Positions 3,939 to 39,548 of a stretch of 64,000 nt of DNA are shown here, piece after piece; positions within the stretch are counted from its first letter, which is position 1, and every line of letters starts with the position of its first letter. Under the pieces are notes generated by a model. That model ran no database searches. It was not told the origin of the DNA and was given only the letters and a program-made list of their open reading frames with translations. Source of the stretch: Streptacidiphilus sp. PB12-B1b (GTDB lineage Bacteria; Actinomycetota; Actinomycetes; Streptomycetales; Streptomycetaceae); the NCBI RefSeq assembly GCF_014084125.1, contig NZ_CP048405.1:6882001-6946000 (forward strand). The letters run 5' to 3'. The position numbers were made by a program, and so were the translations under genes.

Positions 3939-5753
3939 TCAGGGCGTGCTGAAGCCGTTCAGGACGGCCAGGAAGCGCTCGTAGCAGGTGGTCCACTGGT
4001 CGGCCGGGTAGTCGACCATGATGTCGTACTCGGTGCCGGTGCCGTCCTTGTACAGCTGCTCGATGGCGTGGTGCTCCTCCTGGCTGCCGTCCGGGAGCAG
4101 CTTCACGTACGTCCAGTCCCAGCGCGCGCCCGGGTAGCCGTGGAAGACGTCCTGGCCGGAGTCCTGCACGACGAAGGTCTTGTCCTTGACGCTCTGCTTC
4201 ATCTGCAGCAGGTGCTGGATCGGGGTGAGGTTCTGCCCGGCGGTCACGCCGAAGCGGATCAGGTGGTCCTCGTCGCTCTCCGGCGAGTAGTCGGTGGTGG
4301 TCAGCGTGCTCCCGGCCACCCGCTGGAACGGCGGCGAGGTGATCGGCAGCGGGAAGCTGAAGCCGTCCGGGTCCTTGGTCAGCACGAAGCCGGCCGGGAC
4401 CACCGGGGCCGAGGGCGAGGCCGAGGCGGAGGGGCTGCCGCCGGGTCTCGGCGTGCCGCCGCCGGAGGCGGAGCGGTGCCTCATGATCGTGTAGTCGTAC
4501 GCCACCCCGCCGCCGGCCAGCGCCGCCAGCAGCGCGGCCACCACCAGCCACGGCCAGAGCCGGCGGCGACGGCGGCGCGGCTGCGGCCGCTGGTACGACT
4601 GCTCGTTCTGCTGGGACTGCTGGTACGGGTGCTGGTGCGGCTGCTGGTGCTGCGGCCCGGCCGGCTGCTCCAGCGTCGGCTGCTGGGACACCGCGCGCAC
4701 CGGCTCGGTCCGGTACTCGGACTCGACCAGCGCCGGGCGGGTCGGCTCGGTGCGCACGGCCGGGGCCGGGGTGTGCTCGTTGCGGTCCACCAGCGGGACG
4801 GTGCTGGTGGGGGTGCGCAGCGGGCTCGGCGGCTGGCCGATGGTGGTGGTGTCCCCGGCGGCGACCCGCTGCAGCATCCGGATCGCCTCCGGCGCCGAGG
4901 GGCGCTCGTCCGGGTCCTTGCTGAGCAGCGCCTGCAGCACCGGGGTGAGCGCGCCCGCGTTGCGCGGCTCCGGCAGCGGATCGGTGACCACGGCGGTGAG
5001 CGTGGTCAGCGGCGAGTCGCGGCGGAACGGCGACTCGCCCTCGACCGCCGCGAACAGGGTCGCGCCCAGGCCCCAGAGGTCCGAGGAGGGGCCGGGGCGC
5101 GAGCCGTGGACGCGCTCGGGGGCGAGGTAGTCCGGCGAGCCGATCAGGTCGCCGGTGCGGGTGAGGGCGGAGTCGCCCTCGTAGGTGGCTATGCCGAAGT
5201 CGGTCAGCACGACCCGGCCGGTGCCCTGCTCCAGCAGCACGTTGGCGGGCTTCACATCGCGGTGGATCACCCCGACCAGGTGGCCCCGGTGCAGCGCGGC
5301 CAGCACCTGCGCGCCGATCCCGGCGGCCTCACGCGGGTTCAGCGTGCCTTCCTGCTCGACCAGTTCGGCCAGCGAGCGGCCGCTGATCAGCTCCATCACG
5401 ATCCACGGCTTGCCGTCCTGCTCCAGCACGTCGTGGATGGTGATCACACCGGGGTGCCGGATGCGTGCGGCGGCGCGGGCCTCCTGCTTCATCCGGGACT
5501 GGACGATCTGCAGGTCCTCCTCGGCGAGGTGACCCACGGACAGCTCCTTGACCGCGACCTCGCGGTCCAGCATCTCGTCCACGGCGTGCCAGACCGTGCC
5601 CATGCCGCCGCGCCCCAGCCGCGTGCCCAGCCGGTAGCGCCCGGCCAGCATTCTCGCGGGCGGCTCCACGGTGGCCGCGCCCCCCGACGCGGTGCCGTGC
5701 GGTGGCGTCCCTCCGCGCACCGACTCGCCGGCCGAACCTTCTTCCGTGCCCAC
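3939..5753 (-). CDS. Membrane Ser/Thr protein kinase with extracytoplasmic sensor-like domain
   Basis: A 604-aa Hanks-type kinase. The Gly-rich loop GRGGMG is at 47-52, the ATP-anchoring Lys at 69 (VAVKE), the catalytic loop HRDVKPAN with Asp166, DFG at 185 and APE at 211, so it should be active. A Gln/Pro-rich juxtamembrane linker (about 305-395) and RRRRRR precede one membrane helix at 399-421. The outer domain (about 450-604) resembles that of the kinase at 7183-8832 and is not PASTA. GTG 5753 is chosen because AGGGGGAG lies about five bases upstream; an ATG at 5885 would add 44 unconserved residues and has no good ribosome site. It is third in a leftward kinase/pseudokinase/kinase cluster. 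Confidence 0.9.
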   Translation of the reverse strand: MGTEEGSAGESVRGGTPPHGTASGGAATVEPPARMLAGRYRLGTRLGRGGMGTVWHAVDEMLDREVAVKELSVGHLAEEDLQIVQSRMKQEARAAARIRHPGVITIHDVLEQDGKPWIVMELISGRSLAELVEQEGTLNPREAAGIGAQVLAALHRGHLVGVIHRDVKPANVLLEQGTGRVVLTDFGIATYEGDSALTRTGDLIGSPDYLAPERVHGSRPGPSSDLWGLGATLFAAVEGESPFRRDSPLTTLTAVVTDPLPEPRNAGALTPVLQALLSKDPDERPSAPEAIRMLQRVAAGDTTTIGQPPSPLRTPTSTVPLVDRNEHTPAPAVRTEPTRPALVESEYRTEPVRAVSQQPTLEQPAGPQHQQPHQHPYQQSQQNEQSYQRPQPRRRRRRLWPWLVVAALLAALAGGGVAYDYTIMRHRSASGGGTPRPGGSPSASASPSAPVVPAGFVLTKDPDGFSFPLPITSPPFQRVAGSTLTTTDYSPESDEDHLIRFGVTAGQNLTPIQHLLQMKQSVKDKTFVVQDSGQDVFHGYPGARWDWTYVKLLPDGSQEEHHAIEQLYKDGTGTEYDIMVDYPADQWTTCYERFLAVLNGFSTP

Positions 5754-5903
5754 CCCTGCTCCCCCTTGCCTGATCCCCGCCGCGTGTCGAGCCAGCGGCA
5801 GGGCGCCAGACGCCGCGCGTAATCCCCGTTGCTCTGGGGACAGACTAGGGAACGGTCGGCCCGACGGGAACGGCGGGGCGGCCATGTGATCCCGCTGTGA
5901 TGC

Positions 5904-7118
5904 TCACTTCCCGATCAGCGCGGCCATGACCAGAGCCGATGTGACGATCAGAAGTATTGCCGTCACCAGAACAACGCCCAACCGTCCCGCGTGTCGCCGG
6001 GGCGCGGCGTGGTGGTGCGCGTCCTGGCGCGCCACCACGGCCCGGTCGGCCGCCGCCGCGCGGTCGGACCGCCCGGGCAGCTCGGTCCGGCGCGGGCCGG
6101 GCAGCAGCGCGGCCACCGCCAGCACCGCCTCCTGGTTCACCGGCTCCGGCGCGCGCAGCAGCAACTCCCTTATCTCCTGCTGGACTTCCGGCAGCGACGG
6201 CCGGGCCTGCGGATCCGCCGCCAGCAGCCGGCCGACCAGCGGGCCCAGTGGCCCCGACACCGCCTCCGCCGGCTCCCGGGCCGCTTCCGGCAGCGCGTCC
6301 AACGGTGTTTCCGGGTCCGCCCCTGGCAGCGGTTCGCCGGTCAGCGCCCGGTGCAGCAGCGCGCCCAGCGCCCAGGCGTCCGCCGCCGGGCCCACCGCCG
6401 CGACCGCCCCGGCCGGTCCGCCGGGGCCGCGCTGCTCCGGCGCCCAGCGCTCGGGGGCCTCGCCGACCACCACCGCCCGCGCGTCCCGGGCCCGAACCCG
6501 CGCCGGGCTCCAAGGGGATGACGGGACGCCCGCTCCCGGGGTGTCGCCGCCCGGGCCGCCGCACAGCGCCTCCTGCGCCGCGCCCACGGCCAGCCCGCCC
6601 AGCAGTGCCGTGCCGTCGTCGCAGACCAGGACGGTGTCCGCGGTGACATTGCCGTGCACCAGGCCCACCGCGTGCACCGCGCGCAGCGCCGCCACCAGAT
6701 CCCCTGCCAACTCGGCCGCCCGGTACGGCCCGAGCGGGCCGCCGCGCTCCAGCACCGCGCCCAGCGGCGCGCCCGGCACCGCCTCCCCGGCGACCCACAG
6801 GTAGCCGTCCTCGTCGAAGACCTGGAACACCTGGCTCAGCCGGGGGTGGTCGGGCACCGCCCCGGCCACGAAAGCGGCCTGGACCAGGGCCCGTTCGGCC
6901 GTGTCGTCGCCCCGGACCGGCTGCCGGTCCTGGTCGAAGGGGGTGACCAGCTCCGGCAGCGGCACCGCGTCCAGCTGCACCGCCGCGCCGCTGCGGGTGT
7001 CCACCGCCGCGACGCCGGTGGCTACCTGGCGGCCGGTGAGCCGGTAGCGGGACGCCAGCAGCCGCCCGGAGCCGTCGCCGGGGACGCCGGGGACGCCGGG
7101 GTTCGCTGCTCTGCCCAC
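5904..7118 (-). CDS. Tail-anchored protein-kinase-like protein, predicted catalytically dead (pseudokinase)
   Basis: The 404-aa product follows the kinase fold in outline but lacks the catalytic residues. The Gly-rich loop is degenerate, the VAIK-type Lys is Gln (AAVQLD, about residue 48), HRDxKPxN reads HGNVTADTV (155-163), so the catalytic Asp is Asn, and DFG reads LGG (173-175). Later kinase features remain (WAPEQRG, then DAWALGALLHRALTG). The C terminus has a basic/His stretch and a membrane helix at about 379-403 with almost nothing beyond it, so it is tail-anchored with the fold in the cytoplasm. GTG 7118 follows GGGAGG by six bases. It sits between two active kinases and may scaffold or regulate them; that role is inference. 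Confidence 0.85.
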   Translation of the reverse strand: MGRAANPGVPGVPGDGSGRLLASRYRLTGRQVATGVAAVDTRSGAAVQLDAVPLPELVTPFDQDRQPVRGDDTAERALVQAAFVAGAVPDHPRLSQVFQVFDEDGYLWVAGEAVPGAPLGAVLERGGPLGPYRAAELAGDLVAALRAVHAVGLVHGNVTADTVLVCDDGTALLGGLAVGAAQEALCGGPGGDTPGAGVPSSPWSPARVRARDARAVVVGEAPERWAPEQRGPGGPAGAVAAVGPAADAWALGALLHRALTGEPLPGADPETPLDALPEAAREPAEAVSGPLGPLVGRLLAADPQARPSLPEVQQEIRELLLRAPEPVNQEAVLAVAALLPGPRRTELPGRSDRAAAADRAVVARQDAHHHAAPRRHAGRLGVVLVTAILLIVTSALVMAALIGK

Positions 7119-7182
7119 GCCGTCCCTCCCTGTGCGGTGCGGTGGTGCTGTCGTACTGCCGTGCGGTGCTGCTGCCACCATG

Positions 7183-8832
7183 TCAGGTCGCGGGCTGAAA
7201 ACTGCTGAAGAAGGCGTTCATCAGTTCGTGGTTGCGGGCGCCGCCCCAGCCGGCGGCGGCGGACGTCCAGTCGATGGTGTAGCCGTGGTGGCCGTCGGTG
7301 GCGAAGCCGCGGTCGAGCGAGCGCAGGGCCGAGCCGTCGCCGCCGGTGTAGGTCCACTCCCAGTCGGCGGCGTCCCAGCCCCGGTAGCCGACCTTCTGCA
7401 GGTCCACCCGGTGGTAGTGCGGGTAGCTCGCAGCGGTCCGGCTCTCCTCGGTGCGCAGCGCCGCGACCGCGCTGCTGCCGGGCGTACCGGTCCAGGCCAC
7501 GTCCAGGTAGCCGGACGGGCCCCGGTAGCGCCAGTGCTCGGCCGACAGCCGGGTCAGCGTCCAGCCCTGGGGGATCTCGATGGTGGCGCCGCCGGGCATG
7601 GCCACCCGCTCGTAGCCGGGGAGCGGGGTGTTCGGCTTGTCCTGCTGCGCCATCGCCACCCACACCCCGCCGCCCGCCACCACCAGCAGCACCAGCAGGG
7701 CCACCAGCAGCCGGGCCGCGCGCCGCCCGCTGCGGGTGCCGAGCACGGTCACCGACTCGGTGGTCGGCAGCGGCTCGAAGCCGGTGCCGGGCATCGGCAT
7801 GGCCGCGGTGGCGGACTGCGAGCGCGGGCGCGGCGCGGGCCCGGGCGCCGGGAAGGGGTCGCGCGGCCGCGCCCCGCCCGGGTACGCCGGGCCGTCGGCG
7901 GCGGTCGCGGGGGCCGCCCCGAACGGCGGGCGGGCGGAGGGCCCGGCGGCCTGCTGCGCGGCGGACGGCGCGGGCGGCTGTGCCGGCTGCGGGGAGCTGT
8001 CGTCCTGGTTCAGCACCTGCAGCAGCAGGTGCCGGGCGGTGTTCTCGTCGAAGCGCTCCTGCGGGTCCTTGCGCAGCAGCCCGGCGATCACCGGGACCAG
8101 CGGGCCGCCGTTGGCCGGGGGCGTCAGCTCCTCGGTCATCACCGCGGTGAGCGTGGACAGTGCCGAGCCCTTGTCGTACGGCGGCCGCCCCTCGACCATC
8201 GCGTACAGGGTCGCCCCGAGCGACCACAGGTCGGAGGGCGCGCCCGGGATCCGGCCCCGCGCGCGCTCCGGCGAGATGTAGGAGGGCGCGCCGACCAGCA
8301 TGCCGGTGGAGGTCACCGAGGGGTCGCCCTCGACCCGGGCGATGCCGAAGTCGGTGAGCACGACCCGCCCGTCGTGCCCGATCAGCACGTTGGAGGGTTT
8401 GACGTCGCGGTGCAGGATGCCGGAGCGGTGCGCCTGCGAGAGCACCGCCAGCAGCTCCAGGCCGATCTCCGCCGCGCGCTTCGGCGGCAGCACGCCGTCG
8501 GTGGCGATGACCTCGCTCAGCGAGCGGGACTCCACCAGCTCCATCACGATCCACGGCCGGTCGTCCTCCTCGACCACGTCGTAGACGGTGATGGCGGCGG
8601 TGTGCCGGACCCGGGCGATGGCCTTGGCCTCGGTCAGGGTGCGGGCGATCAGCCGCCGCCGCTCGTCCTCGTCCATGCCTGCGGCGAAGCGCAGCTCCTT
8701 CACCGCGACCGGGCGGCCCAGGATCTCGTCCACGGCCCGCCAGACCGTGCCCATCCCCCCGCGCCCCAGCTCGGACACGAGCCGGTAGCGCTCCGCCAGC
8801 AGCCTCCCCGACGTGTCCTGATAAGCGGTCAT
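7183..8832 (-). CDS. Membrane Ser/Thr protein kinase with extracytoplasmic sensor-like domain
   Basis: A 549-aa Hanks-type kinase with all catalytic residues: GRGGMG at 23-28, Lys45, HRDVKPSN with Asp143, DFG at 161. A Pro/Ala-rich linker (about 280-370) leads to a membrane helix at about 374-394 and an outer domain of about 150 residues ending in SSFQP. That domain shares the pattern Y-x-G-x-x-A/W...W-D/E-WTY with the kinase at 3939-5753. ATG 8832 is preceded by GGAGGGG, at rather long spacing. It is the first gene of the kinase cluster and ends 64 bases before the pseudokinase start. The signal it senses is unknown. Confidence 0.92.
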   Translation of the reverse strand: MTAYQDTSGRLLAERYRLVSELGRGGMGTVWRAVDEILGRPVAVKELRFAAGMDEDERRRLIARTLTEAKAIARVRHTAAITVYDVVEEDDRPWIVMELVESRSLSEVIATDGVLPPKRAAEIGLELLAVLSQAHRSGILHRDVKPSNVLIGHDGRVVLTDFGIARVEGDPSVTSTGMLVGAPSYISPERARGRIPGAPSDLWSLGATLYAMVEGRPPYDKGSALSTLTAVMTEELTPPANGGPLVPVIAGLLRKDPQERFDENTARHLLLQVLNQDDSSPQPAQPPAPSAAQQAAGPSARPPFGAAPATAADGPAYPGGARPRDPFPAPGPAPRPRSQSATAAMPMPGTGFEPLPTTESVTVLGTRSGRRAARLLVALLVLLVVAGGGVWVAMAQQDKPNTPLPGYERVAMPGGATIEIPQGWTLTRLSAEHWRYRGPSGYLDVAWTGTPGSSAVAALRTEESRTAASYPHYHRVDLQKVGYRGWDAADWEWTYTGGDGSALRSLDRGFATDGHHGYTIDWTSAAAGWGGARNHELMNAFFSSFQPAT

Positions 8833-38477: not shown

Positions 38478-39548
38478 ATGGCGCACGGTGCGCGTCTGGC
38501 CGATTACCAGGCCGCCTCCGGCTCACTGGCCCGGTGCAGCGACAGCGAACTGGGCGCGCTGGTGGACGCCGCCGCGCCGATGGGCTCCGGCATCGGCGGC
38601 ACCTCGGCGCTGCTCCAGGTCGACGGCGTGCCGGTCTTCGTCAAGCGGGTGCCGCTGACCGACCTGGAGCGGCGGCCGGAGAACGTCGGGTCCACGGCGA
38701 ACCTCTTCGGGCTGCCCGCCTTCTGCCACTTCGGCGTCGGCACCATCGGGGGGCCGGGCTTCGGCGCCTGGCGGGAGCTGGCCGTGCACACCATGACCAC
38801 CGACTGGGTGCTGGCGGGGGAGCACGAGGGCTTCCCGCTGATGTACCACTGGCGGGTGCTGCCGCACCCCGGGCAGGCGCTCCCCCGGGAACTGGCCGAC
38901 GTGGAGCAGGCACTCGCCTACTGGGGAGCCGGACCGGGCATGCGCCGCCGGATCGAGGCGCTGCGGGACTCCTCGGCGAGCATCGCGCTGTTCCTGGAGT
39001 ACATCCCGCAGAACCTGCACGACTGGCTCGGCGCCCGGATCGAAGCCGGGGACGAAGCCGCCGACCGCGCCTGCGCCATGGTGGCGGGGCAGTTGGAGGC
39101 GGGCGTCTCCTTCTTCAACGCCCGCGGCCTGCTGCACCTCGACACGCACTTCCAGAACATCCTGACCGACGGCCGGCGCCTGTACTTCGCGGACTACGGC
39201 CTCTCCCTCGCCTCCGGCTTCGACCTCTCCGACGAGGAGGCCGGCTTCTTCGCCCGGCACCGGAGCTACGACCGCTGCTACACCGCCACCCACCTGGTGA
39301 TCTGGCTCGTCACCGCCCTGTACGGCCACCGGCAGGACGAGCGCAGCGCGTTCGTCCGCGCCTGCGCCCAGGGGCTGCGCCCGACGGGCATCCCCGCGCG
39401 GGCCGCCGCGCTCATCGCCCGGCACGCCCCGGTCGCCGCGGTGATGACCGACTTCTACCGGGCGTTCCAACGCGACAGCAGGCAGACCCCGTTCCCGCTG
39501 GAGGCGCTCCGCCGCATCGACGGGCCGGACACCGCGCTCACCGACTGA
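38478..39548 (+). CDS. Protein-kinase-fold protein of unknown function, coupled to coaA
   Basis: The 356-aa product shows a minimal eukaryotic-like kinase/aminoglycoside-phosphotransferase pattern: GSGIGGTSALLQVDG as a possible Gly loop, Lys56 in VFVKRVPL, catalytic loop HLDTHFQNIL (His220, Asp222, Asn227) and FADYG at 237-241 as a DFG equivalent. It lacks the Hanks HRDxKPxN consensus and has no membrane segment, so it may be a small-molecule or lantibiotic-like kinase or a protein kinase of unusual type. ATG 38478 comes one base after the coaA stop with GGAAG seven bases upstream, so it is translationally linked to coaA. I do not recognise a named family member. Confidence 0.8.
   Translation: MAHGARLADYQAASGSLARCSDSELGALVDAAAPMGSGIGGTSALLQVDGVPVFVKRVPLTDLERRPENVGSTANLFGLPAFCHFGVGTIGGPGFGAWRELAVHTMTTDWVLAGEHEGFPLMYHWRVLPHPGQALPRELADVEQALAYWGAGPGMRRRIEALRDSSASIALFLEYIPQNLHDWLGARIEAGDEAADRACAMVAGQLEAGVSFFNARGLLHLDTHFQNILTDGRRLYFADYGLSLASGFDLSDEEAGFFARHRSYDRCYTATHLVIWLVTALYGHRQDERSAFVRACAQGLRPTGIPARAAALIARHAPVAAVMTDFYRAFQRDSRQTPFPLEALRRIDGPDTALTD

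Follow-up and report, generated by a model that had tools for sequence, protein, structure and literature searches.

What function can a kinase-like membrane protein serve when its catalytic residues are gone and intact kinases are encoded on either side of it? Such a protein is encoded at 5904..7118 on the reverse strand of the window, by which we mean the whole 64,000-nucleotide stretch of Streptacidiphilus sp. PB12-B1b DNA analysed here. The gene opens with a GTG at 7118, preceded by GGGAGGG, and specifies 404 residues; an in-frame ATG further upstream, at 7181, would lengthen the protein by 21 residues to 425 and touches the end of the upstream gene, termed K1 (7183..8832, reverse strand). 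Between the K1 stop codon and the GTG lie 64 bases, and the downstream gene, K2 (3939..5885, reverse strand), has its first ATG 18 bases past the pseudokinase stop; the true start of K2 may lie downstream of 5885. Both neighbours are single-pass kinases that retain the VAVK, HRDVKPxN and DFG motifs in an alignment with PknB, in agreement with a preliminary description of the locus that had been made from the DNA sequence.

A kinase fold without its catalytic residues

The pseudokinase scored 34.5 bits against the Pfam profile PF00069, just over the cut-off of 31.7, and no NCBIfam profile matched it above cut-off. An AlphaFold2 model (42 sequences) had a mean pLDDT of 79 and a pTM of 0.76. Its kinase core was modelled confidently and its loops with low confidence; the tail is disordered, and a C-terminal helix spans residues 377 to 403. 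When the model was compared with known structures using VIA-align, all 50 listed entries were kinases (Z 21.9-24.6), including PknA (4ow8, Z 24.2) and PknB (2fum, Z 23.5), and Foldseek likewise matched it to PknA, PknB and many other kinases. The C-terminal membrane helix (5910..5990, reverse strand) was modelled with pLDDT block means of 91-98 from residue 381, and the hydropathy maximum lies near the end of the protein. Only one residue follows this helix, and the window protein is thus predicted to be tail-anchored. The kinase fold and C-terminal membrane helix proposed in the preliminary description are therefore supported by the model.

Alignment with K1, K2 and PknB revealed that all three hallmarks of an active PknB-type kinase (the beta-3 lysine, the HRD aspartate and the DFG aspartate) are missing. 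The beta-3 motif reads VQLD (residues 47-50; 6969..6980, reverse strand), with Asp50 at the lysine position according to the alignment and column counts. The same three losses had been noted before, with the lysine said to be replaced by glutamine; Gln48 lies two positions away from the aligned lysine and this reading was rejected. HRD is replaced by HGN (residues 155-157; 6648..6656, reverse strand) and the asparagine that follows HRD by a threonine. LGG (residues 173-175; 6594..6602, reverse strand) occupies the expected DFG site, where the reading depends on the alignment: the site is GGL if ungapped, or else a deletion has left the glycine only. The deletion suits the relatives better (LT--GLA versus LTDFGIA). 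The glycine loop is missing from the window protein and from the seven family members inspected. The equivalent of PknB Arg10 is Arg24, and that of PknB Asp76 is a glutamine.

Orthologues were collected by searching 100 genomes, among them that of the window, with the whole protein; 61 of the genomes are from the Streptomycetaceae. Orthologue-level matches (E 5e-27 or better) were found in 53 of these 61 without the use of any motif. The remaining eight genomes, one of which is a 5.4 Mb draft, gave only values of 7e-13 to 4e-18, approximately those of an ordinary kinase match or weaker; likewise, 15 genomes from other families of the same order gave E values of 5e-17 or weaker, the size expected of ordinary kinases. 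A pattern scan of named genomes supplied the best 80 of at least 502 relatives, all from the Streptomycetaceae and 14 of them duplicating sequences from the other search. One of its two patterns spans the DFG-less stretch, biasing the scan, and the 53-genome sample was for this reason taken from the whole-protein search, although there, too, sequences were ranked by their similarity to the window protein. Together, 110 loci yielded 96 distinct orthologue sequences.

None of the 96 carries the beta-3 lysine or the HRD aspartate, and none of the 53 from the motif-free search carries the beta-3 lysine, the HRD aspartate or D-F-G, with the masked sequence L139 and the divergent L153 (whose motifs, HLA and TGT, are doubtful) both counted. 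Orthologues with intact catalytic residues, which according to the preliminary description would speak against a pseudokinase, were thus sought and not found in either set. The beta-3 position is occupied in the 53 by Arg (23), Glu (11), Asp (8), His (8), Phe, Ala or Thr (one each), and in the 96 by Arg (67), Glu (11), Asp (8), His (5) or another residue (5). Asparagine replaces the HRD aspartate in 94/96 sequences, and the motif among the 53 is HRN (27), HGN (24), HGH (1) or HLA (1). An aspartate stands at the DFG aspartate site in six of the 96 and nine of the 53 if the site is read ungapped (DGL), never in the window protein and never together with the phenylalanine. Judged by its sequence, the window protein is almost certainly catalytically dead, and this state is conserved.

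Other parts of the domain have been kept. The ERWAPEQ motif of the APE region (residues 223-229; 6432..6452, reverse strand) is among the best-preserved parts of the family, reading ERWPLD in Kitasatospora types; E223, R224, W225, P227, E228 and Q229 are invariant in a 22-row alignment. The ERW tryptophan is present in 93/93 orthologues with a letter at this position and the APE glutamate in 79/93, while the Arg-Tyr pair at the start of the domain is kept in 96/96. A cysteine just past the catalytic loop (residue 166; 6621-6623, reverse strand) is found in 95/96 orthologues and is absent from K1, K2 and PknB.

Kinase-related sequences were also seen elsewhere. An open reading frame at 38478-39548 (forward strand, 356 residues) has a weak kinase match of 20.9 bits, keeps HLDTHFQN and DYG, and resembles a small-molecule or lipid kinase-like enzyme. 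The G+C content is 0.66-0.68 between 48001 and 64000, lower than the 0.71-0.80 seen over the remainder of the window.

Gene neighbourhood and two forms of the pseudokinase

The pseudokinase had been described as lying between two kinases. Among the 77 loci of named genomes with at least about 3 kb of upstream sequence, a K1-type frame carrying HRD and DFG was the nearest same-strand upstream kinase in every case, which makes K1 the likely partner. Its stop codon lies less than 400 bases from the matched pseudokinase start in 60 of the 77 loci and 412-1477 bases away in the other 17, in some of which the distance is due to a broken K1 frame and where a small intervening gene is possible. The linkage was counted from the matched start, as an over-long open frame at L063 obscures K1 if the count is made from the frame. 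A downstream kinase was found within 3 kb in only 68/77 loci, and K2 was dropped as the constant partner on account of the other nine; one of these (L033) may reflect a frame break, since the identical sequence L007 shows K2. Hence the pseudokinase is better described as lying behind K1 than between two kinases.

The wider gene order is similarly regular. Forty-five Streptomyces loci have a single K1-type gene separating a GlpD-type gene from the pseudokinase; K1 occupies two frames in two of them and one frame in the other 43. In Streptomyces scabiei (L068) the order is GlpD, K1, pseudokinase and then three more kinases. In 12 loci, from Actinacidiphila, Streptantibioticus, Wenjunlia and some Streptomyces, a second kinase is inserted between the GlpD-type gene and K1.

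The 96 orthologues fall into 33 anchored and 63 non-anchored proteins. The anchored proteins come from Streptacidiphilus, Kitasatospora, Kitasatospora-like strains labelled Streptomyces and one further genus; they possess the motif HG[NHA], an activation segment of 33-47 residues (46 in the window protein) and, in complete frames, only 2-8 residues past the most hydrophobic stretch. The non-anchored proteins possess HRN and, in complete frames, 184-225 residues past this stretch. The tail-anchored layout proposed for the window protein therefore applies to this protein and its clade, not to the family in general. In six of the 96, an assembly end or break truncates the frame ahead of the membrane helix (the non-anchored L045, L079, L085, L099 and L104, and the anchored L015), and that of L060 is cut within its ectodomain. 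Activation segments of 226-571 residues were found in 43 named Streptomyces orthologues, and of 50-89 residues in the non-anchored proteins of Actinacidiphila, Streptantibioticus, Wenjunlia and a few others; the expanded Streptomyces segments that were inspected (for example, L065 and L088) are of low complexity. Between beta-3 and the HP loop there are 40 residues in the window protein and 51-76 in Streptomyces orthologues with the loop insert.

The two forms also differ within the kinase domain. The equivalent of PknB Asp76 is an aspartate in 63/63 non-anchored proteins and in 1/33 anchored proteins. An acidic residue occupies the likely aC glutamate site in 59/63 non-anchored proteins (Glu or Asp) and a glutamate in 2/33 anchored ones, assuming a two-residue gap; a loss of the aC glutamate throughout the family was consequently dropped, the acidic residue of the 59 lying two residues further from the histidine. 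The arginine after the HRD histidine is replaced by glycine in 33/33 anchored proteins. The beta-3 arginine is absent from 26 of these and kept in seven, while the 63 non-anchored proteins have arginine (60) or histidine (3) at this position.

A quick tree containing 40 pseudokinase rows grouped these in a single clade (SH-aLRT 100) next to the cluster kinases, and in a second containing 53 pseudokinases the anchored forms (25 rows) constitute one clade (SH-aLRT 98). Both trees were built from chosen rows without the loop insert and ectodomain, and both gave long-branch warnings. The nearness of the pseudokinases to K1 is weak (support 88, drawn open, with a long branch). L143, which has a 45-residue tail, stands apart with an unsure place, and L153, with a tail of 11 residues, was left out of the second tree as no ERW motif was found in it and is unplaced; these may represent further ectodomain losses. 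One other kinase of the window's genome (L121; G000:C1:3019002-3019748) groups with K2, apart from the other kinases of this genome that were used.

The long pseudokinases, the Streptomyces counterparts among them, have ectodomains with homology to those of K1 (hhalign probability 98.0) and K2 (99.0), and these two are in turn homologous to one another (99.8). A Pfam search listed no family for the K1 and K2 ectodomains. That of K2 (3939-4406, reverse strand) was modelled at a pLDDT of 95 with a PsbP/LpqN/Mog1-type fold; the model resembles the structures of PsbP (2vu4, Foldseek E 8e-8), LpqN, Mog1 and DcrB, with structural Z values of 14.4 for both 2xb3 and 3lyd and 12.5 for LpqN (6e5d). The ectodomain is present in the cluster kinases and in the sister group, so its loss in the anchored clade would be simpler than repeated gain.

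Published pseudokinase families and alternative explanations

Several bacterial pseudokinase families have been described as being of unknown function, among them ActPs2 (O'Boyle et al. 2025, PMC12599244). In ActPs2 the beta-3 lysine is replaced by arginine in almost all members, the HRD aspartate is replaced by asparagine and DFG is deleted in most; approximately 90% possess a 32-residue insert between beta-3 and aC together with a 250-residue insert in the activation loop, and there is a C-terminal membrane region. The ActPs2 section, with WP_053198479.1 as representative, gives neither a gene cluster nor a function, and the word 'Streptomyces' is absent from the main text (PMC12599244). The Streptomyces orthologues are a close fit to this description, including the beta-3 arginine and the long activation segment. 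The window protein shares with ActPs2 its actinobacterial origin, the HRD aspartate to asparagine change, the lost DFG and the C-terminal membrane helix, but differs in its beta-3 aspartate, HGN in place of HRN, short activation segment, short beta-3/aC linker and missing ectodomain. Its link to ActPs2 would rest on these shared features and on its position in one clade with the Streptomyces proteins. As it lacks the beta-3 arginine and both inserts, we provisionally assign it, by sequence, to a divergent sister branch rather than to ActPs2 in the standard sense.

The preliminary description compared the protein in principle with MviN. MviN has been assigned to a different family, ActPs3, and serves as a PknB substrate to which FhaA binds (PMC12599244). 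Both proteins have a dead PknB-like fold within an actinobacterial membrane protein; unlike MviN, which is multi-span in Mycobacterium tuberculosis, the window protein has 404 residues and one membrane helix and does not form part of a transporter, and the family hallmarks differ. The comparison thus stands in principle, with ActPs2 being the better fit. It nevertheless raises the possibility that the neighbouring kinases phosphorylate the loop or juxtamembrane tail of the pseudokinase, which then recruits an FHA protein to the membrane. MviN provides a precedent as a bacterial pseudokinase of the same fold with a described role (PMC12599244), active-type kinases lie on both sides of the window gene, and its tail is disordered in the model. 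However, a 42-row alignment contained no conserved serine or threonine in the tail or activation segment; the sole invariant or near-invariant such residue was T159, within the remnant of the catalytic loop. We consider a phospho-scaffold of this type unlikely.

A nucleotide-sensing switch, in which ATP or another nucleotide is bound without catalysis and changes the shape of the protein, appears less likely again. An AlphaFold3 model of the ActPs2 representative sets ATP against R42 and R177 (PMC12599244), which we infer to be the arginines of the beta-3 and HRN columns. The 63 non-anchored orthologues keep HRN and a beta-3 arginine or histidine, as would suit such a switch. In the window protein, however, both sites are changed (to Asp and Gly), and elsewhere in the anchored clade these candidate ATP-binding arginines are mostly replaced, alongside the missing glycine loop noted above; nucleotide control is therefore improbable there.

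Is the gene simply decaying? The identity of the window protein to its relatives is lower than that of K1 and K2, and some frames are broken in draft assemblies. The dN/dS of the pseudokinase core was 0.44 and 0.52 in two Kitasatospora-type pairs. Against this, the remaining 12 of the 14 close pairs gave ratios of 0.03-0.18, the gene is kept in most genomes of the family, and its motifs and membrane helix are conserved; K1 gave values of 0.07-0.51 in the 10 pairs where the ratio was computable. The pseudokinase is under purifying selection, and decay without function is very improbable.

Some kinases once called dead, in other families, do show catalysis, and the occasional DFG-site aspartate of the orthologues might favour residual or unusual activity through another set of residues, but the window protein has neither this aspartate nor the lysine, the HRD aspartate, the asparagine that follows it or D-F-G, leaving this the least probable explanation of all.

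A predicted partner of the sporulation kinases

In Streptomyces coelicolor, SCO4775 (pkaH), SCO4776, SCO4777 (pkaD), SCO4778 (pkaI) and SCO4779 (pkaJ) form a sporulation kinase cluster (PMC4416010). The common gene order at the Streptomyces pseudokinase locus is that of SCO4775-4779, with the pseudokinase at the position of SCO4776 and K1 as the positional counterpart of SCO4775/PkaH. The window gene stands at the same place, directly after a PkaH-type kinase. A GlpD gene is a neighbour in S. coelicolor as well. By position, SCO4776 would be the pseudokinase, its dead state included. The cluster paper treats SCO4776 as one of five eSTPKs, compared with three such genes in a row in the window, and it does not contain the term 'pseudo' (PMC4416010). 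A literature search covering titles, the openings of abstracts and few subscription papers found none that calls SCO4776 a pseudokinase or puts ActPs2 in this cluster.

Aberrant, vancomycin-sensitive spores were reported both when the entire cluster was deleted and when any of its genes except pkaI was present in a second copy, an outcome that the authors read as a kinase imbalance (PMC4416010). If SCO4776 is indeed dead, this effect of dose must act through binding, and the disturbance of the spore wall by its second copy fits a non-catalytic action. The cluster genes were reported to be transcribed separately, with pkaH mRNA undetected and SCO4776 constant, although another data set is cited for high pkaH expression (PMC4416010); SCO4776 and PkaH were both detected as proteins elsewhere, and PkaH phosphorylates MreC (PMC9739823). 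The cluster partner reported for PkaI in a two-hybrid screen was PkaD and not SCO4776 (PMC4416010). A simple one-to-one complex with PkaH is not what separate transcription and an undetected pkaH transcript would lead one to expect.

As its relatives across the family share the catalytic losses yet remain under selection, the protein most likely acts through contact with its neighbours and not by phosphorylation. The best explanation of these observations, to which we assign a probability of approximately 0.55, is that the pseudokinase works without catalysis as a membrane-bound partner of the kinases in the cluster, K1 in particular. The regulator or scaffold proposed in the preliminary description thus remains the best reading and is partly supported, the beta-3 lysine and the HRD aspartate being absent from every orthologue examined. 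We rate the chance that it regulates K1 specifically as about even, gene order being indirect evidence and the mechanism an inferred one. The gene may have originated in a tandem duplication of a K1/K2-like receptor kinase, followed by the loss of catalysis. The retained kinase-shaped surface at the membrane would then bind the cytosolic domain of K1, with the well-conserved ERW region as a candidate contact surface, and perhaps also other cluster kinases or substrates in spore-wall synthesis; the amount of pseudokinase would set the output of the cluster kinases.

The contact is not likely to be a PknB-like back-to-back dimer. The window protein shares its fold and the domain-start Arg-Tyr with PknA and PknB but lacks their catalytic residues, and the equivalent of Asp76 is absent from 32/33 anchored proteins, which argues against a dimer of the PknB type. 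Asp76 of PknB is a dimer-interface residue; PDB entry 3orm is annotated in the VIA-align listing as the PknB D76A mutant.

In the Streptacidiphilus/Kitasatospora clade the pseudokinase would probably be a tether or dose-dependent modulator without an external signal of its own, as these proteins are without the ectodomain, the HRD-adjacent arginine, mostly the beta-3 arginine, and the aspartate of the PknB-type dimer. A more tentative extension, which we regard as possible but not probable, is that the anchored clade is a second-step pseudokinase. The ancestor would have been a receptor-type form that sensed through its ectodomain, dimerised in the manner of PknB and perhaps held a nucleotide; stripping of the ectodomain, the pocket arginines, the aC glutamate and the dimer aspartate would then have left a signal-independent inhibitor or tether of K1 that sets a threshold for the spore-wall kinases.

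The most useful result is that the window pseudokinase appears to be a reduced form of a published but functionally blank pseudokinase type, to which a constant partner gene and a link to a cluster with a spore phenotype can now be added. If placed correctly, SCO4776 gives the ActPs2-like proteins a constant candidate partner (K1/PkaH), a spore-wall pathway and an existing phenotype in a tractable strain, and the anchored clade allows naturally occurring forms of one pseudokinase to be compared with and without the ectodomain and pocket arginines.
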